Source: Bacteroidaceae bacterium (GTDB taxonomy: Bacteria > Bacteroidota > Bacteroidia > Bacteroidales > Bacteroidaceae). From it: DNA of 62,005 nucleotides. The notes below the pieces were generated by a model. The model made no database searches. It was not told the origin of the DNA and saw nothing but the letters and a program-made list of their open reading frames with translations. Both the position numbers and the translations under genes were made by a program. Location: positions 1 to 62,005 of the forward strand of contig JAGAQH010000031.1 of assembly GCA_017622815.1 (NCBI GenBank), in the 5' to 3' direction. Below, piece by piece: positions 263-28,319 of the stretch (its first letter is position 1; each line of letters starts with the position of its first letter).

Positions 263-700
263 ATGAGAAGAACGGCAAAATTGTACAAAGATATTCCGGC
301 CAAGTATCCGCTTTGTCTGCATGCCAACTGTCCTATGGCTGATACCTGCCTGCATCAACTGGCGTTCCGTCGTCATGAAGAATTGGGAAAACACCTCACG
401 CTGATAAACCCTGCACTATGCACCATGCAGGAAGACTGCCCCCATTATGCCAATGCCAGACCAGTAAGATTTGCCAAGGGGTTCACCAACTTCCAGACAC
501 GTATGTTTCCTCAGCAATATTCCAAGTTCATGGACATGCTCGTCTTGCACTTCGGTCGCAACCAGTATTTTATGCGTAGAAGTGGCAAGGTTATCCTATC
601 GCCCGAGGAGCAGGAAATCATTCTCAATGCCTTGAAAGCCAGTGGTATAGACTCTCACTTTGATTTTGGCGAATACATCGAGTCCGTCTACTGGGAATAA
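263..700 (+). CDS. DUF6078 family protein
   Basis: A 145-residue protein that I recognise as the Bacteroidetes DUF6078 family. The typical layout is seen: an N-terminal cysteine-rich part (CLHANC, DTC, then LCTMQEDCPHY), the conserved block ARGF/AKGFTNFQ followed by MFPQQY, and a basic FGRNQYFMRRSGK segment before the acidic C-terminus. The ATG at 263 is chosen because family similarity begins with RTAKLYKDIPAKYPLCLHA; a longer frame back to 179 has no family character. The cysteines could bind a metal, but that is inference. Function is unknown. A hairpin directly follows the stop. Confidence 0.75.
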   Translation: MRRTAKLYKDIPAKYPLCLHANCPMADTCLHQLAFRRHEELGKHLTLINPALCTMQEDCPHYANARPVRFAKGFTNFQTRMFPQQYSKFMDMLVLHFGRNQYFMRRSGKVILSPEEQEIILNALKASGIDSHFDFGEYIESVYWE

Positions 701-702
701 CA

Positions 703-740
703 GCCAGTACCGATTATACAACATAAAATTCGGTACTGGC
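703..740. terminator. hairpin downstream of the DUF6078 gene
   Basis: A perfect 11-bp inverted repeat (GCCAGTACCGA at 703-713, complement at 730-740) begins two bases after the stop codon. It lies between convergent reading frames, so it may act in both directions. A clear U-tract is missing. Confidence 0.5.
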
Positions 741-754
741 CGCCTTTCGCAAAA

Positions 755-964
755 CTAAGTAGTACAGATGTGATAGGCACGATATCCTATGCTAATCACG
801 GCATCGATGTTATAGAATTGCGTCAAATAGTTCTTCTTGTCGGATTCAGTTGCCGAGAAAATCTCGGCAACTGAATCCTTTTCAAGTTCCCCGGAGGCAA
901 AGATATTCTTTAGATGCAGTCCGATGTTATCTGTAGAGCAATCAAACAGCATTTCACCATTCAT
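755..964 (-). pseudogene. RhuM-family virulence protein, internal fragment
   Basis: A 69-residue open stretch carries the RhuM-family signature: LHLKNIFASGELEKDSV, then TQFYNIDAVISIGYR. In intact family members (about 330 residues) this part follows an N-terminal segment and precedes a DNA-binding-like ATKTLKEYI region and a Fic/Doc-like end. Both sides are absent here, so this is a decayed remnant. The codons for DSVAEIFSATES fall inside a perfect 17-bp palindrome. Its presence suggests this gap once held an accessory gene. Confidence 0.65.
842..878. repeat. perfect 17-bp inverted repeat with AAA loop
   Basis: Bases 842-858 pair without mismatch to 862-878, leaving a 3-nt loop. It lies inside the RhuM remnant. 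It would form a strong hairpin on either strand; no U-tract follows. Confidence 0.7.
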
Positions 965-1075
965 GAGGTTTATCCAAACGTTATAAGTTTGTCTCAGGTT
1001 GAAACTTAATTTTGGCCACTCTTGCTATCTATGCATTAAAATTATGCCTAGATTGGCAGTTTTTTTATATAAAAC

Positions 1076-1106
1076 TTGCATAGTATGATAAAAAGAAGCA
1101 TCTTTG
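1076..1106 (+). promoter_or_regulatory. Bacteroidetes-type promoter
   Basis: TTG at 1076-1078, then 20 nt, then CATCTTTG at 1099-1106, close to the TTTG/TAnnTTTG consensus. Transcription would begin near 1112. This excludes the open frame extending to 1076 as the start of the next gene and favours the ATG at 1148 or 1151. Confidence 0.55.
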
Positions 1107-1147
1107 CATCGTCAAAAAATGCCAGTATTGGCAAAAATGTAATATAC

Positions 1148-2404
1148 ATGATGGAGATAAAAAGAGATCGATATCTGAAACAACTGATAGATAGTCGACA
1201 AAACGACTTTATCAAAGTTGTTACTGGAATCCGCAGATGTGGCAAGTCATATCTGCTGAATGTCTTGTTCTATCACTACTTATTGGATAATGGAGTGGCT
1301 GATGACCACATCATCCGCATAGACCTTGAAGACCGCATGAACAAGGAACTGAGAAATCCTGACACTATGCTCCATTATGTTCATGATAGAATCAAGGATA
1401 AAGAGCTGTATTACATCATCATTGATGAGGTGCAATTGATGGATGAGTTTGTTGATGTGTTGAACAGCTTCCGGCATATTGATAATGCTGACACATACGT
1501 GACAGGCAGTAACTCTCACTTCCTATCATCAGACATTCCTACGGAATTTCGTGGTCGAGGAGAGACTATTCATGTTAACCCATTGTCTTTTGCGGAGTTT
1601 TATTCTGCCGTTGGCGGTGACAAGCAGGATGCATGGCGTGAATATTATACCTATGGTGGTCTGCCGCTCATCCAATCTTTTGAGAGCGAAGAAAAAAAGA
1701 TAAATTATCTGAAGGACTTGTTTGAAACTGTATATTTGGCAGACATTATTGAGAGACACAAAATCAAGAATGATAATGAACTCCGTGAGTTGGTGCTTAT
1801 TTTGGCATCATCTATAGGTGCTCCATGCAATCCGACTAAATTGTCGAATACTTTCAAAAGTGTTAAGAATATAAGCATAGGCAGTCAGACAATTTCTAAT
1901 TACCTTACCTATCTGTCTGAGTCGTTCCTGCTGAACAAAGCCATACGCTACGATATAAAAGGCAAGAAATACATCAACACGCTATCCAAATATTATTTCT
2001 CGGACATCGGTTTGAGAAATGCCATCCTTGATATGCGCCAACAGGAAGAGACGCACATCATGGAGAATATCATCTACAACGAACTTATCACACGAGGATA
2101 TAGTGTGGACGTTGGAATGGTGGAGATAAAGAAGCAGGACAAGGATGGTAAGTGGGTGCGCATCCAACTGGAAGTGGACTTTATAGCCAGTCTTGGAAGC
2201 AAGAAATATTACGTGCAGTCGGCATTGTCTATCCCTGACAGGGAAAAGGAGATACAGGAGTCTCGTTCACTGACAAACATCTATGACTCTTTCAAAAAGG
2301 TTATCATTGTGAAAGACCACATCATGCCACGTCGCAATGAAGATGGCATACTGACAATAGGTCTCTTCGATTTCCTTCTAAAAGAGGATAGTTTGGATAT
2401 ATAA
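1148..2404 (+). CDS. AAA-family ATPase with DUF4143 domain
   Basis: A 418-residue protein of the AAA_14/DUF4143 type that is common as single genes in Bacteroidales. Walker A is GIRRCGKS (residues 27-34) and Walker B is IIDE (about 91-94). The TGSNSHFLSSDIPTEFRGRG segment matches the sensor region of the family. The C-terminal third has EVDFIA followed by KKYYVQ, which resembles a PD-(D/E)XK-like nuclease core. The start is set by the promoter just upstream. Its cellular role is not established; such proteins are often accessory genes. Two tiny membrane ORFs follow. Confidence 0.85.
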   Translation: MMEIKRDRYLKQLIDSRQNDFIKVVTGIRRCGKSYLLNVLFYHYLLDNGVADDHIIRIDLEDRMNKELRNPDTMLHYVHDRIKDKELYYIIIDEVQLMDEFVDVLNSFRHIDNADTYVTGSNSHFLSSDIPTEFRGRGETIHVNPLSFAEFYSAVGGDKQDAWREYYTYGGLPLIQSFESEEKKINYLKDLFETVYLADIIERHKIKNDNELRELVLILASSIGAPCNPTKLSNTFKSVKNISIGSQTISNYLTYLSESFLLNKAIRYDIKGKKYINTLSKYYFSDIGLRNAILDMRQQEETHIMENIIYNELITRGYSVDVGMVEIKKQDKDGKWVRIQLEVDFIASLGSKKYYVQSALSIPDREKEIQESRSLTNIYDSFKKVIIVKDHIMPRRNEDGILTIGLFDFLLKEDSLDI

Positions 2405-2437
2405 TAAGAGTAAACATCCAGAAGCTTTACAGATAAG

Positions 2438-2542
2438 ATGAAAAAATTCTTCAGCATATTAGAGAACATTATCGGCTATACACTATTTTTCGCATTCACT
2501 GCATTCGTCATACTTTACTTCTTGCTTCTTGGGAGTAATTGA
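2438..2542 (+). CDS. small single-pass membrane peptide (34 aa), hypothetical
   Basis: ATG at 2438, 33 bases after the ATPase stop, with AGATAAG just before it. The peptide starts with MKKFFSILENIIGY and continues as one hydrophobic stretch (about residues 13-31). Its end overlaps the next small frame, which suggests coupled translation. Length and composition are the only support, and no family is recognised. Confidence 0.4.
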   Translation: MKKFFSILENIIGYTLFFAFTAFVILYFLLLGSN

Positions 2543-2555
2543 AGAAGAAACGAGA

Positions 2556-2711
2556 ATGAAGGTAATGGGGTATATTCCTTACTGCTACCTTGGGGCTGCG
2601 ATTGTAGTTCTCTATAAATTAGTCGCTCTCGTTTTCACCTGTTTCTATCAAATAAAGATTGAAAAGCGGAAAGAATATCTTGATGAGATTCTCGCTGGGC
2701 AAAAAAAATGA
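2556..2711 (+). CDS. small membrane protein (51 aa), hypothetical
   Basis: One hydrophobic segment (YLGAAIVVLYKLVALVFTCF, about residues 8-27) is followed by a charged tail (KIEKRKEYLDEILAGQ). The ATG at 2556 is taken as the start; a TTG at 2529 in frame would overlap the preceding peptide by 14 nt. The pair could be a small two-component membrane unit or a by-product of an A+T-rich spacer. No family is recognised. Confidence 0.4.
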   Translation: MKVMGYIPYCYLGAAIVVLYKLVALVFTCFYQIKIEKRKEYLDEILAGQKK

Positions 2712-2782
2712 AGAGGCTTGCTACCAAGCAAGGAGATATGCTTAAACAATAATTAACTCCATTCATAGAAAATGTAAAGCGT

Positions 2783-3406
2783 ATGTCAGAAGGCGACACA
2801 GATGCAGTCATTAAAGAGATTCAAGACCGTCTGCCCGAAGTGGTTCAGAAGTTGGTGGATCAACGAGTGGCAGAGATTAAGCAAGACATGAACAAGGAGA
2901 ACGAAGAGCGGATCCAAGAAATCAATGTCCTATCGGCTAATGTTTCTGATGTATTGGAAAGACGAGAGCATCTGCTCAACCTTGAAGCAGAAATCAAGCG
3001 ATGCCAGGAAGATGAACGAAAGAAGCAACTGGCTAAAACAGAAGAATACACGATGTTGGCGTTCTCTTTGGCAGGCACATCTGTAGAAGATGTAGAGAAA
3101 GTATGCTACGTTGTAAAACTATTTATTGAGACTGGACAGGTGGATGCTAATAAGGATTTACGCATTCCTTTGAATAAGAAACTACGCAATGCGGAAGTGA
3201 AGCAGTTCGTCTATAATATAATAAGGTATAACGGGAAAGAAAATCTCGATGCCGAGTCATTCCTTCAAACAGCATTTGGAGAATGGTTCAGTGGCAAAAA
3301 AGAAAACATAGCCAAGAACTATTCTGTGCTGCCCAAAGACTCGTTGGTGTCAAAGGAGGGAGTGGAAACGGATTTGGAAAGATTACGAAAACATATGGAC
3401 ATCTAG
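2783..3406 (+). CDS. coiled-coil protein of unknown function
   Basis: A 207-residue soluble protein with no signal peptide or membrane segment. Residues 1-90 are highly charged and heptad-like (EIQDRLPEVVQKLVDQRVAEI, then NLEAEIKRCQEDERKKQ), indicating a long coiled coil. The remainder looks globular and helical (TSVEDVEKVCYVVKLFIETG). No catalytic motif was found and I do not recognise the family. It precedes the SIR2-type protein by 140 bp on the same strand. A functional link to that gene is possible but rests only on position. Confidence 0.65.
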   Translation: MSEGDTDAVIKEIQDRLPEVVQKLVDQRVAEIKQDMNKENEERIQEINVLSANVSDVLERREHLLNLEAEIKRCQEDERKKQLAKTEEYTMLAFSLAGTSVEDVEKVCYVVKLFIETGQVDANKDLRIPLNKKLRNAEVKQFVYNIIRYNGKENLDAESFLQTAFGEWFSGKKENIAKNYSVLPKDSLVSKEGVETDLERLRKHMDI

Positions 3407-9409: not shown

Positions 9410-9563
9410 TTCTCCAGTAGGGTGGGGCAGGTGTTGGCATGCGAAGAAGTGCCTTGTTGTATGAAACTCTAATGCTTTGGCGTACAGAGTCTTTGTTGCT
9501 CTTGCTCATGCACATAATCACCTCGTGCAAGCTTAGGTGTCTATGTAAATAGTAATATTAAAA

Positions 9564-9595
9564 TTTGCACACAATGGAAAAAAGACTTAAATTTG
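9564..9595 (+). promoter_or_regulatory. promoter for the WecA-like gene
   Basis: TTTG at 9564-9567, 20 nt, TAAATTTG at 9588-9595: a full Bacteroidetes consensus. The start of transcription would be near 9602, 30 nt before the ATG. Confidence 0.7.
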
Positions 9596-9631
9596 CACTA
9601 GGAAGATGTTTTCCGAACACAAAAGTTTGAT

Positions 9632-10906
9632 ATGGATTTAAGTGTTTTTGCCATTATAGGCTTGCCGGTAGTCGTATCGCTGCTTGCTGTACGCTGGGTA
9701 TATTTCAAGATATTGAAGATAGCCAAGGAAAAGAATCTTGTGGACAATCCCGATGCACGTAAGTTGCAGAAGGTTCCGGTACCAGTTGTTGGTGGTCTTG
9801 CTGTTTTCTTCGGTCTCCTTTTCGGCCTGTTGTGCGGCATCACCATGATGAATCTCTTCGCTGATGACATAGGAATGTTTTCCGGTATCGTTTCAGTAAA
9901 CAGACTGCTGCCTATAGTGTTGGGTATGAGCATCATGCTTTATGTCGGTTGCATGGACGACATCATGGGCCTCTCCCCCAAGGCACGTTTCCTCATAGAG
10001 ATACTCGTTATCCTGGGTCTGATATACTCCTCTGGCATCAGTGTGGACTCCCTTCACGGCCTGTGGGGCATAGACGAAATCCCCTCGGTAGTGGCTGTTC
10101 CGCTCACCATCTTTGCGGGAGTGGGCATTATCAATGCCATCAACATGGTGGATGGCGTCAACGGTCTTTCCTCCGGCCTGTGCATAACATGCAGCATGCT
10201 CTTCGGCCTTCAATTCTTCTGTATTGGCGACTATGTGAATGCCGTGTTGGCATTCTCCATAGCATCTTCACTGTTCCTGTTCTTTATACATAATGTATTC
10301 GGCAATCAAAGCCGCATGTTCATAGGCGATGCCGGTACGATGGTCATGGGCGTCCTCATGACGTGGTTCGTCATGTGCTCCATGCACGATGCCGGACGAG
10401 GCATGATTCTTGATTATGCATATTGTCCAACCGCTATGGTAGTGGCTATCCTCTCCGTTCCGGTTGCCGACACACTCCGTGTCATGACCATGCGCGTCTT
10501 CCATGGCAAGAGCCCCTTCAGTCCCGACAAGACCCATCTGCATCACGCTTTTGTAGGCATTGGTGTAAGCCACAGCATAACAGCTCTCTCTGAGATACTT
10601 ATCGATGTTACCGTAGTGGCCATTTGGTATCTTTCTGTCCGTCTTGGTGCTCCCCTGCACTGCCAGCTCTACACCGTTGTGCTTGTAGCCGCCATTCTTG
10701 TGTGGGGCACATATGCCTTTCTTGTACACGAGCAGAAATCCAATAGCCGCATAGCCCGTTGGCTTCGTGGCTTTTCTCCCAAGACCCACCTTGGTTCTAC
10801 CGAATGGTGGCAACGCCTCACATATCGTTTGGACTCGCCTGAATTTGATGAGCACGAACGCAAGAACCTCCGTGAGCGCCTTGAACGCAAGTTCATGAAC
10901 AGGTAG
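9632..10906 (+). CDS. WecA/MraY-family undecaprenyl-phosphate sugar-1-phosphate transferase
   Basis: A 424-residue polytopic membrane enzyme of glycosyltransferase family 4 (WecA/TagO/WbpL). It transfers a HexNAc-1-phosphate to undecaprenyl phosphate and so starts a glycan repeat unit. Diagnostic motifs are an early DNPDARK, NMVDGVNGLSSG (171-182), FIGDAGT (230-236) and the cytoplasmic HLHH (302-305). About eleven hydrophobic segments are visible, then a hydrophilic tail of about 50 residues. It has its own promoter, divergent from UpxY, and is separated from the rest of the glycan cluster by a 1.6 kb gene-free region. Confidence 0.93.
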   Translation: MDLSVFAIIGLPVVVSLLAVRWVYFKILKIAKEKNLVDNPDARKLQKVPVPVVGGLAVFFGLLFGLLCGITMMNLFADDIGMFSGIVSVNRLLPIVLGMSIMLYVGCMDDIMGLSPKARFLIEILVILGLIYSSGISVDSLHGLWGIDEIPSVVAVPLTIFAGVGIINAINMVDGVNGLSSGLCITCSMLFGLQFFCIGDYVNAVLAFSIASSLFLFFIHNVFGNQSRMFIGDAGTMVMGVLMTWFVMCSMHDAGRGMILDYAYCPTAMVVAILSVPVADTLRVMTMRVFHGKSPFSPDKTHLHHAFVGIGVSHSITALSEILIDVTVVAIWYLSVRLGAPLHCQLYTVVLVAAILVWGTYAFLVHEQKSNSRIARWLRGFSPKTHLGSTEWWQRLTYRLDSPEFDEHERKNLRERLERKFMNR

Positions 10907-22540: not shown

Positions 22541-23782
22541 ATGCTCAACATACTAATCAACGCATACGCCTGTAGTCCCAACTGGGGGAGTGAACCTGGT
22601 TTGGCATGGAATTGGATTTCTAACCTTGCCAAATATTGTGAGTTATATATAATAACGGAAGGGGAGTGGAGAGAAGAAATAGAGGAGGCAGTAAAGGTTC
22701 ATCCCTTTGCTCGGAATATGCATTTCTATTTCAATCCCGTTTCTGATAAGGTGCGCCGGATGTGTTGGAATCAGGGTGACTGGCGTTTTTATTATTACTA
22801 TCGTCAGTGGCAGAAGAAGACGTTGAAAATAGCTGAACAGATTTGTAGGGAGCATAAGATAGATATTACTCATCAACTCAATATGATTGGTTTCCGCGAA
22901 CCAGGTCTTCTTTGGAAAATTAAAGGAGTGAAGCATGTATGGGGACCTATAGGAAGTATGGGTGAGGTGCCTACAGAGTTTCTTAAGGATTTGCCTTTGG
23001 CTGTTCGCCTGAAGCAGTCATTGAAGAATATGATTACACGATACCAAATTAAACATGCTCCTGTAAAAAGCGCAATTAAGCATTCTGACGCTTTAATTGC
23101 AGCATTGGATGTGACAAGAGATCAGATAAAGAAGTGCTATGGTATAGATGTGCCAGTTATTGGTGAAACGGGACTTGTACCCAATAATGGACATCCTCAT
23201 AGTGAATGTATAGGACGTCCAATAGAACTATTGTGGGTAGGACGTTTTATCCCGACCAAAAAACTATCTATAGCACTCGAAACATTAGCTAAAACGACAA
23301 ATCCAAAAGATTTCCGTTTGCATATAGTAGGAAGCGGTACGGATAGAGAAGTGGCGTTGTACAAACAGCAGGCGGTAGATTTTGGTATCAATGATATTTG
23401 CACATGGTATGGCAAAATTCCCAATGTTGAGGTGCAAAAAATGATGAGGGAGAAAGATTTATTCTTCTTTACAAGTGTATTTGAAGGTGGACCCCATGTC
23501 ATTCTAGAATCCATTACCAATAACATTCCTATTCTCTGTTTTGATACATGCGGACAAGGTGTTGTAGTTGATGAAACAATAGGTTATAAGATACCTCTAA
23601 CAAATCATCAAGAAGGTGTCAAGGGATTTGCTGAAAAATTGAATTATATTAGTAATCACCGTGATGAACTGCCTGTTATTTCATCAAATTGTACAGCAAA
23701 GCAGCAAGAACTTTCATGGGAGAGTAAGGTAAAGCAGATGGTGGATATATATAATAAGGTGTTATCAGAACAGATATACTAA
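22541..23782 (+). CDS. glycosyltransferase family 4 (GT-B)
   Basis: A 413-residue GT-B enzyme starting MLNILINAYACSPNWGSEPGLAWNWI, the GSEPG loop typical of a GT4 subgroup in Bacteroidetes. Later motifs are ELLWVGRFIPTKKLSIALE (linker to the donor domain) and FFFTSVFEGGPHVILESITNNIPILCFD (retaining E-G-x-P-H-x3-E motif). It is the last intact gene of the A+T-rich glycan run. Its stop codon overlaps the ATG of a 24-codon remnant of another glycosyltransferase tail. Confidence 0.92.
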   Translation: MLNILINAYACSPNWGSEPGLAWNWISNLAKYCELYIITEGEWREEIEEAVKVHPFARNMHFYFNPVSDKVRRMCWNQGDWRFYYYYRQWQKKTLKIAEQICREHKIDITHQLNMIGFREPGLLWKIKGVKHVWGPIGSMGEVPTEFLKDLPLAVRLKQSLKNMITRYQIKHAPVKSAIKHSDALIAALDVTRDQIKKCYGIDVPVIGETGLVPNNGHPHSECIGRPIELLWVGRFIPTKKLSIALETLAKTTNPKDFRLHIVGSGTDREVALYKQQAVDFGINDICTWYGKIPNVEVQKMMREKDLFFFTSVFEGGPHVILESITNNIPILCFDTCGQGVVVDETIGYKIPLTNHQEGVKGFAEKLNYISNHRDELPVISSNCTAKQQELSWESKVKQMVDIYNKVLSEQIY

Positions 23783-23856
23783 TGTATAAGGAAAAGTTCA
23801 CTTTATCTTGTTTCGAGCATAGGTTTGCTGAAATTCTTAGGGAGATGAACGGTTAG
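23782..23856 (+). pseudogene. remnant of a glycosyltransferase C-terminus, copy 1
   Basis: Encodes MYKEKFTLSCFEHRFAEILR and four more residues before a stop. It is about 80-85 percent identical in DNA, by eye, to the end of the truncated GT4 gene at 26526-26600. The start codon overlaps the preceding stop. It marks one edge of the inserted three-gene cassette. Confidence 0.75.
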
Positions 23857-23970: not shown

Positions 23971-24001
23971 TTTGAATTATCGTATATTTTTTGTAATTTT
24001 G
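23971..24001 (+). promoter_or_regulatory. promoter of the Cas2-like/ATPase cassette
   Basis: TTTG at 23971-23974, 19 nt, TAATTTTG at 23994-24001. Transcription would start near 24008, exactly where a hairpin begins (ATTGGTTAAAC 24008-24018 with GTTTAAACCAAT 24040-24051). This 5' hairpin could stabilise the message or act as a binding site. Confidence 0.6.
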
Positions 24002-24066
24002 CGTCAAATTGGTTAAACTAGAATTCACATATACCTAATGTTTAAACCAATGTAAAGTGTGAAAAT

Positions 24067-24342
24067 ATGGGATTAAAGAAATATTCGATAAGTTATGATT
24101 TGCGCCAACCTGGGCGCAGCTATACAGACCTGTATGATGCAATCAAGAAGTGTGATACTAACTGCCAACATCCATTAGAGTCTAATTGGTATATACGTTC
24201 CAGTCTCTCTGCTCAAGAGATATATTCTTTTTTACGTCCTCATATTGATGACAATGACTTGCTTTTTGTCGTAGAAATCAATTCAAACAATCAGCAAGGA
24301 TGGATGTTGCGTACTTTTTGGGATTGGATAAAAGAAAAATGA
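24067..24342 (+). CDS. Cas2-like small protein (SinR-annotated family)
   Basis: A 91-residue protein. The opening KKYSISYDLRQPGRSYTDLYDAIK, then ESNWYIRSSLSAQEIYSFLRPHIDDNDLLFVVEI, matches the family often labelled SinR-like, which has the ferredoxin-like fold of Cas2 and VapD. The beta1-strand aspartate of YDLR lies where Cas2 nucleases carry their metal ligand. There is no CRISPR array or Cas1 nearby. It is the first gene of a three-gene operon: the ATPase gene begins one base after its stop. Nuclease activity is possible but unproven. Confidence 0.7.
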   Translation: MGLKKYSISYDLRQPGRSYTDLYDAIKKCDTNCQHPLESNWYIRSSLSAQEIYSFLRPHIDDNDLLFVVEINSNNQQGWMLRTFWDWIKEK

Positions 24343-24343
24343 T

Positions 24344-25459
24344 ATGATTACCAAACTTAGAATCCAAAATTTCAAATGTTTTGAGGAAGAGCGTGAGATT
24401 ATTTTCTCACGTTTTAATATTTTATACGGAAAAAACGGACGAGGTAAGTCAACCGTGACACAATCGTTATTGTTGCTGAGCCAAAATGTTAAGAAAAAGG
24501 ATACCTTGACAAATGAAGTGTCACTTAAAGGAGAACTTATAGATTTAGGAAATTATACGGATGTCCTAAATCGTTATGCAAAATCCAATCAGATTAATAT
24601 TGGTGTATCTACTGATGTTGATTTAGAACTCTTTCTTTCATATGGTAAGTCAAAGTTAGGGCCGACCATGTTGCATATGGAAGATTCGTGGCATGGTGAC
24701 ACCAGACTTGTTTCTAGTGTAGGTACTGATGGACAGGATTCTAGGGACACAAAGAACTCTGGACCGATGTCAGGAATCAAAGCATTGGAAACATTCAGAC
24801 AACTGAAGTATGTGTCGGCCAATAGAAGAGGGCCTACAAACTACGAGGAGAGGCAAGATGATTTTTATTATGATGACATTGGCGTTAACGGTGAAAGACT
24901 GATAAATTCCTTAGCTAAGAAAAGCCCAGAATTCATAGAGAAATTACAGGAGGCTTTATCATACATACTTTCTGGCGCCACAATAAATATAAACAACGAG
25001 GAGAATAGTGATAATATAGAATTATTGCTTGATTCTATGGATGATTCGTTGGGATTTAAACCAACAAATGTAGGATATGGGTACAGCTGTGTTCTGCCAA
25101 TCATATTTCAATTACTTACAGCAAATGAAGGGTGTTCTGTTATTATAGAAAATCCCGAAGCGCACCTTTATCCTGGTGCACAATCACGATTGGTTGAGTG
25201 GATGGTAGCTGTAGCAACGGAAAAGCAATTGCAGGTTATTATAGAAACTCATAGTGACCACATTATAAATGGTTTAAGAATTGCTATAAAAAATAAAAAA
25301 ATTGATAGAAGCGATGTTTCTATACAGTTCTTTGATAGGAAAGGAGCAATGTACTCACCAGATATATTAACTATTAGAGTTGATGCTAATGGAACATTGA
25401 GCGATAACCCAATAGACTTTATGGATGAATGGACAAGACAAATGTTAGCATTGTTATGA
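24344..25459 (+). CDS. AAA/ABC-type ATPase, DUF3696-like (OLD/RecF-related)
   Basis: A 371-residue ATPase. MITKLRIQNFKCFEE and Walker A GKNGRGKS (29-36) are typical of RecF/OLD-type proteins that read a nucleic-acid end or a sensor partner. Walker B with two acidic residues is IIENPEAHLYP (E269 and E272), followed by ETHSDHIING (301-310, switch histidine). There is no TOPRIM domain, so a separate effector is expected. Its last bases overlap the next start (ATGA), a sign of coupled translation. The stoichiometry and genetic linkage resemble compact defence modules. Confidence 0.85.
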   Translation: MITKLRIQNFKCFEEEREIIFSRFNILYGKNGRGKSTVTQSLLLLSQNVKKKDTLTNEVSLKGELIDLGNYTDVLNRYAKSNQINIGVSTDVDLELFLSYGKSKLGPTMLHMEDSWHGDTRLVSSVGTDGQDSRDTKNSGPMSGIKALETFRQLKYVSANRRGPTNYEERQDDFYYDDIGVNGERLINSLAKKSPEFIEKLQEALSYILSGATININNEENSDNIELLLDSMDDSLGFKPTNVGYGYSCVLPIIFQLLTANEGCSVIIENPEAHLYPGAQSRLVEWMVAVATEKQLQVIIETHSDHIINGLRIAIKNKKIDRSDVSIQFFDRKGAMYSPDILTIRVDANGTLSDNPIDFMDEWTRQMLALL

Positions 25460-26292
25460 AAAAGGATGTTTGCTTTCATGAATTATCTGTACCTTTTCCT
25501 GTCACCCACAATGAAGATATAGATTTATTGATACAAAAATATGCCGATACAATAAAAGAGGCTAATAACCAAGGATTCAATAAGGTTAGATATGAAAAGG
25601 GTGTGGAATATATTATGTTGAGGGATGATTATTCATTAGCTCAATATCTATGCGAAAATTCAACGAGACAATCTGTTAGAGTACTATTGGCAACTCAAAC
25701 CAAGCCTTACATTCCTGAGGATAGTCCTGTGGAAGAGGCTTATGTAATGAATCAGTATTATATTAAGTTTAAAGACGACGAAATCCATGCGGAGGGTTTT
25801 GCTGCTGCGGCCTTGTCGGAAAGTATAGCGGTTGGCATGGAAAATAGAGAGTGGACAGAGATTTGCTATGACGTGTTAGAGAAAAGGCCAGAGAGCAATG
25901 TTCTAAGGAAAATAAATGTCTATTATGCATATAATCCTGATTTTTTTGCAAGCCAAAGTTTTTTAAAATGGGCAAATATTAATCTACCGCCAGAGATTGT
26001 TGATTGTAGAATACCGTACATGAATAAGAAGATACAATTACCTCAACACCATGGTAAAGATGTTTTATTTAAATTGGCTAAAAGATTGGTTCGCGAACCA
26101 TATGTAAAGGAAATTCCAAATTCAATAGATCGTGATTCAAAACAAAAGAATTTCATTAGCGGAATTAATGGGAATATTATTTATATTACTTTAGTTGGTG
26201 AAGGAGGTTTTGGACTGGCCGTATCTACTACTGCGCGAAATGAGCGTGAGGCTAGTTATATTGCAACGCTAATTAAAAATAAATTTAGCTAA
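25456..26292 (+). CDS. unknown protein coupled to the DUF3696-like ATPase
   Basis: A 278-residue soluble protein that I cannot assign to a named family. The ATG at 25456 overlaps the ATPase stop by four bases, so the two are surely co-translated. The first half is acidic and helical. The last 85 residues look like a separate domain: LPQHHGKDVLFKLAKRL, NSIDRDSKQKNFISGI, then beta strands IIYITLVGEGGFGLAVSTTARN and a final helix. The conserved-looking HHGKD and TTARNxxEA segments are candidates for an active or binding site. It is the most likely effector of the cassette, by elimination. Confidence 0.75.
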   Translation: MKKDVCFHELSVPFPVTHNEDIDLLIQKYADTIKEANNQGFNKVRYEKGVEYIMLRDDYSLAQYLCENSTRQSVRVLLATQTKPYIPEDSPVEEAYVMNQYYIKFKDDEIHAEGFAAAALSESIAVGMENREWTEICYDVLEKRPESNVLRKINVYYAYNPDFFASQSFLKWANINLPPEIVDCRIPYMNKKIQLPQHHGKDVLFKLAKRLVREPYVKEIPNSIDRDSKQKNFISGINGNIIYITLVGEGGFGLAVSTTARNEREASYIATLIKNKFS

Positions 26293-26345: not shown

Positions 26346-26600
26346 GACTGTGCAACATCCAAACCTATCGTTTCCACGAATGAAGGTGCTGTGCCTGATA
26401 TGGTTGTGGATGGCGAGAATGGTTTCATCTGTAAGCGCCAAGACGCTGCAGGTTTGGCAAATGCTATAGAGCGTCTTTTGCTTGATGAGGCTTTAAGACA
26501 TAGGATGGGAGAAGAGGGATATCGAATGTATAAAGAAAAGTTCACCTTGTCTTGTTTCGGGCATAGGTTTGTTGAAATTCTTCGTTTGATGAACGGCTAA
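26346..26600 (+). pseudogene. truncated glycosyltransferase family 4 gene, C-terminal part
   Basis: Open from 26346 (after an in-frame TGA) and encodes the donor-side end of a GT4 enzyme: ATSKPIVSTNEGAVPDMV, GENGFICKRQDAAGLANAI, then MYKEKFTLSCFGHRFVEILR. The N-terminal 250 or more residues are missing. The last 75 bp are duplicated at 23782-23856, so the cassette 24067-26292 lies between two copies of one gene end. Confidence 0.8.
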
Positions 26601-26774: not shown

Positions 26775-28319
26775 ATGAAATTTCCTATAGGTATACAGCA
26801 GTTTGAGAAATTACGTGAAGAGGATTGGGCTTATGTGGACAAGACTGTGCATATCTTCAATCTGGTTCAAGGGGGTACATGTTATTTCCTGAGCCGTCCA
26901 CGTCGTTTCGGTAAGAGCATGCTGTTGTCTACTCTGGAAGCTTATTTCCAGGGAAAGAAACATCTGTTCAAGGGACTTGCCATAGAACAGTTGGAAACGG
27001 AATGGGCGGAGCATGCAGTACTGCATATAGATTTGAATGCCAAACCATTCCAAAAAGTAGAGGATTTATATGACTTGCTTAACGACCAGCTGACCATTTA
27101 TGAGAAGATGTATGACAGCGTGGCTGTGGACAAAAGTCCTGAGGGTCGGTTGCGCCAGCTTATTCGTGCCGCCAAGCAGAAGACAGGTAGAAATGTGGTG
27201 GTTCTTGTTGACGAGTATGACAAACCCATACTTCAGGCTATAGGCAACGAGGAGTTGCAGACGGAGTTCCGTAATGCCTTGAAAGCATTCTATGGTGTGC
27301 TGAAGAGTGCTGACGGTGACTTGCGCTTTGCCATGCTTACGGGTGTGACCAAGTTCAGCAAGGTGAGTGTGTTCAGTGACTTGAACAACCTGAACGATAT
27401 TTCCATGGATGACCGCTACAATGAAATATGCGGAATATCCCAACAGGAACTGCATGATGTCTTTGACGAAGAGATTGGCAAACTGGCTGTTGCCAATGAG
27501 CAAAGCAAGGAGGAGGCTTACGAGACTTTGCGCCAGCGTTATGATGGCTACCACTTCTGCCCAAATGCTTCGGGTATGTACAATCCGTTCAGTGTGCTTC
27601 TGGCCTTGCAGAAGAGAGAATACGGTAGTTTCTGGTTCAGTACGGGTACACCAACATACTTGGTACAGTTGATGAAAGAAGCCGACCTCAATCCCTATGC
27701 ATTGTCTGGTTACGAGGCCAGTGCCAGCGAACTGGACAGTATACAAATCAGCGTGGACAATCCCATAGCTGTGTTATACCAGAGTGGTTATCTTACCATT
27801 AAGGGGTACGACAGCCGTTTTAAGGTATATACTCTGGATTACCCCAACGACGAGGTGAAGGAAGGTTTTGTGAACTTCTTGGTACCTTACTACACTTACT
27901 CCAAATCCGTAAACCATGCTACCATCATAGGACAGTTTGTGAAGAGTCTGGAACGTGGAGATGCAGAGCACTTTATGGAACTATTACAGAGTTTCATGGC
28001 TGGTATACCCTATGAACTGGTACGCAATCTGGAAGTTCATTTTCAGAACATGATTTACATCATCATCAAACTGATGGGACTTTATGTTCAGGCAGAATAT
28101 CGTACATCCTGTGGCCGCATAGATTTGCTGATAGCTACAGAAAAGTATATCTATGTGATAGAACTAAAACTTGATGGCAGTGCAGAGGAGGCTTTGGCAC
28201 AGATAAACGAAAAGGATTATGCACTTCCGTTTACTGCCGATGGCCGTAAGGTAATCAAGATAGGTGCCAACATTACCAGTGCCACAAGAAATATCGAGCG
28301 CTGGGTGGTGGGGGAATGA
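26775..28319 (+). CDS. AAA-ATPase-like protein with PD-(D/E)XK nuclease domain
   Basis: A 514-residue protein of the AAA_ATPase-like/PDDEXK_9 type, which is heavily expanded in Bacteroidales. The opening PIGIQQFEKLREEDWAYVDKT and the P-loop SRPRRFGKS (40-48) are diagnostic. VVVLVDEYDKPI is the Walker B region. The C-terminus has the nuclease core GRIDLLIATEKYIYVIELKLDG (D...ExK). These genes have no settled function; they are usually single accessory genes of possible mobile or defence origin. It has its own promoter and is followed by a strong palindromic terminator. Confidence 0.92.
   Translation: MKFPIGIQQFEKLREEDWAYVDKTVHIFNLVQGGTCYFLSRPRRFGKSMLLSTLEAYFQGKKHLFKGLAIEQLETEWAEHAVLHIDLNAKPFQKVEDLYDLLNDQLTIYEKMYDSVAVDKSPEGRLRQLIRAAKQKTGRNVVVLVDEYDKPILQAIGNEELQTEFRNALKAFYGVLKSADGDLRFAMLTGVTKFSKVSVFSDLNNLNDISMDDRYNEICGISQQELHDVFDEEIGKLAVANEQSKEEAYETLRQRYDGYHFCPNASGMYNPFSVLLALQKREYGSFWFSTGTPTYLVQLMKEADLNPYALSGYEASASELDSIQISVDNPIAVLYQSGYLTIKGYDSRFKVYTLDYPNDEVKEGFVNFLVPYYTYSKSVNHATIIGQFVKSLERGDAEHFMELLQSFMAGIPYELVRNLEVHFQNMIYIIIKLMGLYVQAEYRTSCGRIDLLIATEKYIYVIELKLDGSAEEALAQINEKDYALPFTADGRKVIKIGANITSATRNIERWVVGE

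Follow-up and report, generated by a model that had tools for sequence, protein, structure and literature searches.

The three-gene cassette at positions 24067 to 26292 of contig JAGAQH010000031.1, from a Bacteroidaceae bacterium (assembly GCA_017622815.1), is probably an anti-phage operon of the Menshen type, with a small Cas2-like protein substituted for the DUF262 protein NsnA. The analysed stretch, positions 1 to 62,005 of that contig, is called the window here. The cassette is real and conserved, and it represents a variant of a defence system already described, not a wholly unknown one. The Nsn names are those of the Menshen system (NsnA-NsnB-NsnC), which reportedly comes from Millman et al. 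2022. An earlier interpretation made from the letters of the window alone (the sequence-only reading) had placed three tightly coupled genes here, and its coordinates and spacing were confirmed. The genes are close-packed, with a 1-bp gap between A and B and a 4-bp overlap between B and C, and are as follows.

Gene A, 24067..24342, + strand: 91 amino acids (aa), Cas2/VapD-fold protein of the family phrog_1090; occupies the NsnA (DUF262) slot of Menshen.
Gene B, 24344..25459, + strand: 371 aa, NsnB-type OLD-like ATPase with a C-terminal DUF3696.
Gene C, 25456..26292, + strand: 278 aa, NsnC-type two-part effector, with its ATG at 25456.
N-terminal part of gene C, 25456..26010, + strand: related among NsnC proteins that have different ends.
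C-terminal HG(K/N)D...TT(G/A)R domain of gene C (HG/TTGR or HG domain), 26044..26289, + strand: residues 197-278, predicted toxin.

The second and third genes were assigned to Menshen by profile searches. Gene B matched the PADLOC model for NsnB (PDLC03878) at an E-value (E) of 9e-91 over residues 1-371 and profile positions 1-343 of 345, and its next-best PADLOC match was far weaker (1.4e-35). In Pfam it matched AAA_15 (1.1e-29) and, at its end, DUF3696 (9.8e-5; 23.0 bits, the cut-off being 22), and no nuclease or TOPRIM domain was listed for it up to E 1. This agrees with the sequence-only reading, which had described a DUF3696-type ATPase lacking an effector domain. The same reading had found no family for the third protein. 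That claim did not hold, as gene C matched the PADLOC model for NsnC (PDLC03895) at E 4.9e-45 over residues 4-278. The AlphaFold2 (AF2) model of gene C had a predicted local distance difference test score (pLDDT) of 92, and Pfam listed no OLD-type TOPRIM nuclease domain for it up to E 1.

Gene A gave a confident predicted model with the Cas2-type ferredoxin (Cas2/VapD) fold, which upholds the earlier suggestion that the first protein opens like Cas2/VapD. The phrog_1090 profile also matches two genes that Pfam assigns to Cas2. The best-known role of Cas2 is that of a partner protein when CRISPR spacers are acquired. Gene A is like CRISPR Cas2 in its predicted fold, but unlike it in having no match to Pfam Cas2 (PF09827) at E up to 1. 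Neither Pfam GmrSD_N (DUF262), at E up to 1, nor PADLOC matched gene A. No cas1 was recognised by eye among the open reading frames (ORFs) near the trio, and no search for Cas1 was made beyond these.

To place the cassette among its relatives, we used an NsnB alignment that was run via two short patterns over 84,980 species genomes and gave 382 relatives; the 80 best were taken further. In the ten loci closest to the window's NsnB (L013-L022), an A-like gene stood directly upstream in all ten, and the third gene was an intact NsnC in nine and decayed in L018. In L018 the decayed NsnC start lies right after NsnB (L018:6126-6200), so that the third gene can apparently be lost while A and B stay. 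More widely, 79 NsnB loci had a same-direction upstream gene (L064 had no upstream gene in the scan), and this first gene was A-like in 14 and of another kind in 65. The DUF262 domain (GmrSD_N) was matched in 61 of these 65, and one of them, from L038, was scanned with PADLOC and matched NsnA at 7.7e-128.

The distribution of the two kinds of first gene was followed on an NsnB tree of 81 rows, on which all 65 non-A upstream genes were labelled as DUF262, though the domain was matched in the 61 just given. The first-gene label required 2 changes on this tree compared to a mean of 13.9 for shuffled labels, and none of the 500 shuffles was as low. Thirteen A-type rows including the window formed one group (99/93), and L030 and L043 formed a second. 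All 14 A-type loci belong to Bacteroidota by their record names. Distances between proteins were correlated over nine loci, L021 being excluded as a near copy of L019. The correlation was rho 0.49 for A-B (7 of 2000 permutations as high) and rho 0.61 for B-C (2 of 2000), and was weak for A-C (rho 0.35, 145 of 2000). Relative to the nearest relative, L013, the nonsynonymous divergence (dN) was 0.13 for A, 0.16 for B and 0.22 for C, with synonymous sites near saturation; by this comparison all three genes are under constraint at the protein level.

The linkage was also seen from the third gene. NsnB lay directly upstream in seven of the eight NsnC-based loci outside the window (L003, L004, L005, L093-L097; L005 stops at the contig end), and homologues of gene C were therefore not found to occur widely without the ATPase. 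L003 is the same place as L015, so that the NsnB-based and NsnC-based sets overlap there, and a ninth NsnC-based match (L009, E 6e-4) had no recognisable B or C. The three genes do occur together elsewhere. The sequence-only reading had proposed a compact defence system on this plan. The plan is supported by the Menshen matches, the recurrence of the trio in ten further loci (in L018 with the decayed NsnC) and the YoeB ends of gene C relatives described below, but it belongs to a variant of a known system.

The same genome gave one DUF262 gene, which is on contig 37 in an operon of its own. This second Menshen-like operon (L134, G000:C37:77500-81800, positions 442-3342, + strand) has an NsnA matched by PADLOC at 3.2e-100 (the gene read as L123) and an NsnB-like ATPase matched to gene B by phmmer at 3.9e-21. 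Its third gene differs and contains an HDRYVIVDD stretch that looks phospholipase-D-like by eye.

The third genes fell into several C-terminal classes. In 78 sequences (77 loci and the window), 18 were of the HG class, 39 of the GYIG group, 9 HGEN and 5 YoeB, and 7 were unassigned. The GYIG group joins the seed classes CEPH, GYIG and SLHIK, whose profiles match at E 1e-47 or better; L051 and L089 were excluded because inspection showed that their downstream ORF was no third gene, and L018 because its NsnC is decayed. The Pfam YoeB toxin domain (PF06769) was found in five of ten gene C relatives scanned, at best 8.3e-21, at the position that HG/TTGR holds in the window. The N-terminal profiles matched each other across classes (HG/YoeB 1.1e-38, HG/GYIG 7.5e-20 and the remaining pair 5.4e-20), and those of the HGEN class and of the unassigned rows had no match to the HG, YoeB or GYIG profiles. 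Judged by these profile matches, NsnC is modular, with related N-terminal parts joined to exchangeable C-terminal domains. Since these N-terminal parts carry HG/TTGR, the YoeB toxin or another family, gene C is most likely a toxic effector.

The HG domain itself can be put forward as a definite candidate for a toxin domain of a new kind. Residues H199, G200, T258, T259 and E265 were invariant in all 17 aligned sequences, and residues 201-277 were modelled as a helix, four strands and a helix, a model for which no solved structure matched at a convincing score. YoeB had no Pfam match in gene C and no profile linked the HG class to the YoeB class, though the two may share a fold. The domain did weakly match the last part of the PADLOC model CARF7--CARF_DUF2103, which matched 17 of the 77 third genes (best 1.6e-15) and hints that the HG domain may also be used in CARF effectors. 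Against this, none of the six CARF proteins recovered with the model extended past profile position 282, and the window's match starts at 263. Pfam DUF2103 (PF09876) had no match in gene C (E up to 1) or in the genome of the window, and it was absent from the seven families matched by the 77 third genes (E up to 0.01).

The A-like genes were partnered with third genes of the HG (10), GYIG (2) and HGEN (2) classes, and the other first genes were paired with every class. First and third genes thus combine freely, which argues that gene A replaces NsnA and not the effector. Because the Cas2-like protein alternates with DUF262 while the kind of third gene varies, it more likely replaces the Menshen trigger protein than acts as a toxin. 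The sequence-only reading had proposed a small nuclease-like subunit beside a separate effector; the layout is as it supposed, and the role of the small subunit is more likely that of the replaced trigger. If the Cas2-like protein does take the place of the DUF262 trigger, this would give a function to orphan Cas2-like proteins, and trigger and toxin would be exchanged independently in the NsnB ATPase family. PADLOC named the second and third genes and not the first, so operons of this kind would escape any caller for which NsnA is obligatory.

We infer that the cassette protects against phage. A dimer of the Cas2-like protein would bind a nucleic-acid structure or a protein made during infection and would then work on the NsnB ATPase, as operon linkage and co-inheritance suggest. 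NsnB would be an ATP-driven switch whose change of state with ATP releases or activates NsnC, docked via its shared N-terminal part. The HG/TTGR domain might then cut an essential nucleic acid, most likely RNA given the exchange with YoeB, although the target is a guess. The infected cell would stop growing or die before the phage multiplies.

The roles of the first and third genes could also be reversed: the Cas2-like protein would be the effector, a nuclease directed at DNA, and NsnC the part that senses or restrains. We consider this unlikely. The solved structure closest to the gene A model was BPSL1038, a Cas2/VapD-type double-stranded DNA nuclease, and at the Cas2 aspartate, D11, 13 of 15 operon members have D and the other two E. 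It has been proposed that DUF262 is itself a nuclease (PMC11980606). These points are outweighed by the alternation of gene A with DUF262 and not with toxins, and by the known toxin domain, which sits in NsnC relatives. Further, the relatives L127, L128 and L129, which stand alone outside Nsn operons, have by eye no acidic residue where Cas2 has its aspartate and are, on this point, probably not nucleases of the Cas2 kind, although other stand-alone relatives such as L098, L099 and L125 keep the YD. The BPSL1038 sub-family also differs from the cassette, in that the available part of its paper describes no ATPase or effector partner and that gene A does not carry its D(X20)SST motif in that form (PMC10491678).

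Less probable still is a toxin-antitoxin-like module, in which C would be a toxin neutralised by A (or by A and B) and the genes would serve stabilisation and not primarily defence. Such a module would suit the toxin domain that ends gene C relatives, the short genes in one operon and the A-like genes elsewhere that adjoin a HEPN gene or genes for membrane proteins. A system triggered by infection is indicated instead by the layout of three genes, one of them for an OLD-like ATPase, and by the Menshen match. The 72 flanking ORFs of L013-L022 had profile matches of both glycan and defence type (among the best 25 of 85 and the best 25 of 57 families), and type III restriction-modification and AbiLi models were matched among them. 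By eye, type III restriction-modification genes adjoin the trio in L019 and L021. The trios of these two loci are 98-99% identical in protein and come from different families by record names (Amulumruptor and Phocaeicola; L019 is a metagenome bin), which suggests recent transfer.

We regard it as very improbable that the cassette is part of the glycan locus, or that unrelated genes have come to stand in a row by chance: glycosyltransferase genes do surround the cassette here and in several relatives (sugar or polysaccharide-synthesis genes flank the trio by eye in the ORF listings of the window, L013, L014, L015, L020 and L022), but the order and close spacing are kept at diverged sequence in other families, including L017, L018, L019 and L021 with no obvious glycan genes by eye, protein change is constrained, and the cassette genes match defence families.

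The cassette can be set against several described systems. In PARIS, Septu, Gabija and other systems of this kind, an OLD-like ATPase gates an effector. The cassette has an OLD-like ATPase in common with them, with a predicted gating role, and its trigger and effector modules differ from theirs. With Menshen it shares the NsnB ATPase followed at tight spacing by NsnC, and a first gene directly upstream of NsnB; it differs in having no DUF262 NsnA in the operon and a 91-aa Cas2-like protein in its place. According to a review, Menshen includes a DUF262 gene required for resistance and also a protein predicted to be an OLD nuclease, with a domain of the TOPRIM family (PMC10952713). Pfam gave no such domain up to E 1 in either B or C, yet the NsnB model is covered by B over its full length. 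The ptuXYZ operon is described in Gerdes 2025 as DUF262, a P-loop ATPase and a protein with PIN-like and YoeB domains (PMC11980606). Like the cassette, it has three genes and ends in a two-part protein, and our YoeB-type third-gene loci fit its description, a likeness drawn from the description and not from ptuXYZ sequences. It is unlike the cassette in that its first gene is DUF262, which gene A does not match, and in that the third gene here ends in the HG/TTGR domain. Menshen is never named in that paper, and its section 26 says nothing of Cas2.

Among the papers searched, none had DUF3696 and Cas2 together. The titles and abstracts listed in searches for Menshen held no Cas2-like variant, and one review among them has both words once each (PMC12926258). 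A title by Li et al. 2025 (gkaf357) on diversity within Menshen is cited in PMC12839542 and PMC12704722; going by the title, that work may have described the effector swap before, and possibly a Cas2-like first gene as well.

Four further features lie beside the cassette.

Promoter of Bacteroidota type, TTTG-N19-TAATTTTG, 23971..24001, + strand: judged by its fit to the consensus.
Leader hairpin, 24008..24051, + strand: judged by its folding relative to shuffles.
Glycosyltransferase tail, left copy, 23781..23855, + strand: 87% identity to the right copy.
Glycosyltransferase tail, right copy, 26525..26599, + strand: 87% identity to the left copy.

The promoter that had been claimed for the cassette was found. 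It fits the Bacteroidota consensus; the pattern occurs 7 times in the window compared to 1.15 +/- 1.22 times in shuffles, and 7 of 14 relatives have it in the 250 bp that precede gene A. The claimed 5' hairpin exists but does not fold better than chance (z -0.65, 50 of 200 shuffles folding equally well), and when the leaders of three relatives were folded, a notable hairpin appeared only in L013 (z -2.0). The two remnants of a glycosyltransferase tail were correctly recognised in the sequence-only reading. They are 75-nucleotide direct repeats whose starts are 2,744 bp apart, they bracket the cassette, and a genome search found the repeat at just these two places (7 of 17 candidates scored). 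The repeats fit acquisition or rearrangement at the end of the glycosyltransferase gene; an empty site was sought in 100 other genomes of the genus and none was found. Further downstream, at 26775-28319 on the + strand, is a 514-aa protein that presumably resembles the common Bacteroidota AAA-ATPase-like/PD-(D/E)XK type.

Gene A also has relatives outside Nsn operons. The neighbours of 12 stand-alone A-like loci, all from Bacteroidota, were read; weak phrog_1090 matches (L108, L110 and L130) were kept outside this tally. A hydrophobic protein of 122-261 aa adjoined the A-like gene in seven of the 12, upstream in L099 and L125-L129 and downstream in L102. These partners were mostly dissimilar, only those of L126 and L128 aligning well. 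In L098 a HEPN_RiboL-PSP gene (positions 737-1773, 7.2e-10) overlapped the A-like gene by 4 bp, and L101, L103, L104 and L105 had no obvious partner. It is possible, as a tentative reading, that phrog_1090 Cas2-like proteins are a general, portable infection-sensing module, which replaces DUF262 in Bacteroidota Menshen and is paired elsewhere with membrane proteins or a HEPN RNase. If so, killing through the membrane, by an RNase and through an ATPase gate would share a single phrog_1090 sensor.

Relatives of phrog_1090 were also present in 48 phage records, 35 of them staphylococcal. In the one record examined for gene order, that of the staphylococcal phage phi 13 (L122, record positions 9528-9782, - strand), the gene lies just before the replication initiation gene, on the opposite strand. 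As such relatives occur in phages, the same tentative reading would even allow a Cas2-like protein of the phage to act as the trigger, in a mixed dimer with that of the host.

The pairs of Cas2-like and hydrophobic proteins (L099, L125-L129 and L102), several of them with overlapping stop and start, may form a two-gene cassette. L106 and L111 encode proteins of 221-257 aa that are matched by phrog_1090 and apparently, by eye, have two domain copies per chain. On plasmid NZ_CP051473.1 (L133), a Cas2-like gene lies directly before a set of nucleotidyltransferase and SAVED-domain genes, in a locus resembling a cyclic-oligonucleotide-based antiphage signalling system (CBASS).
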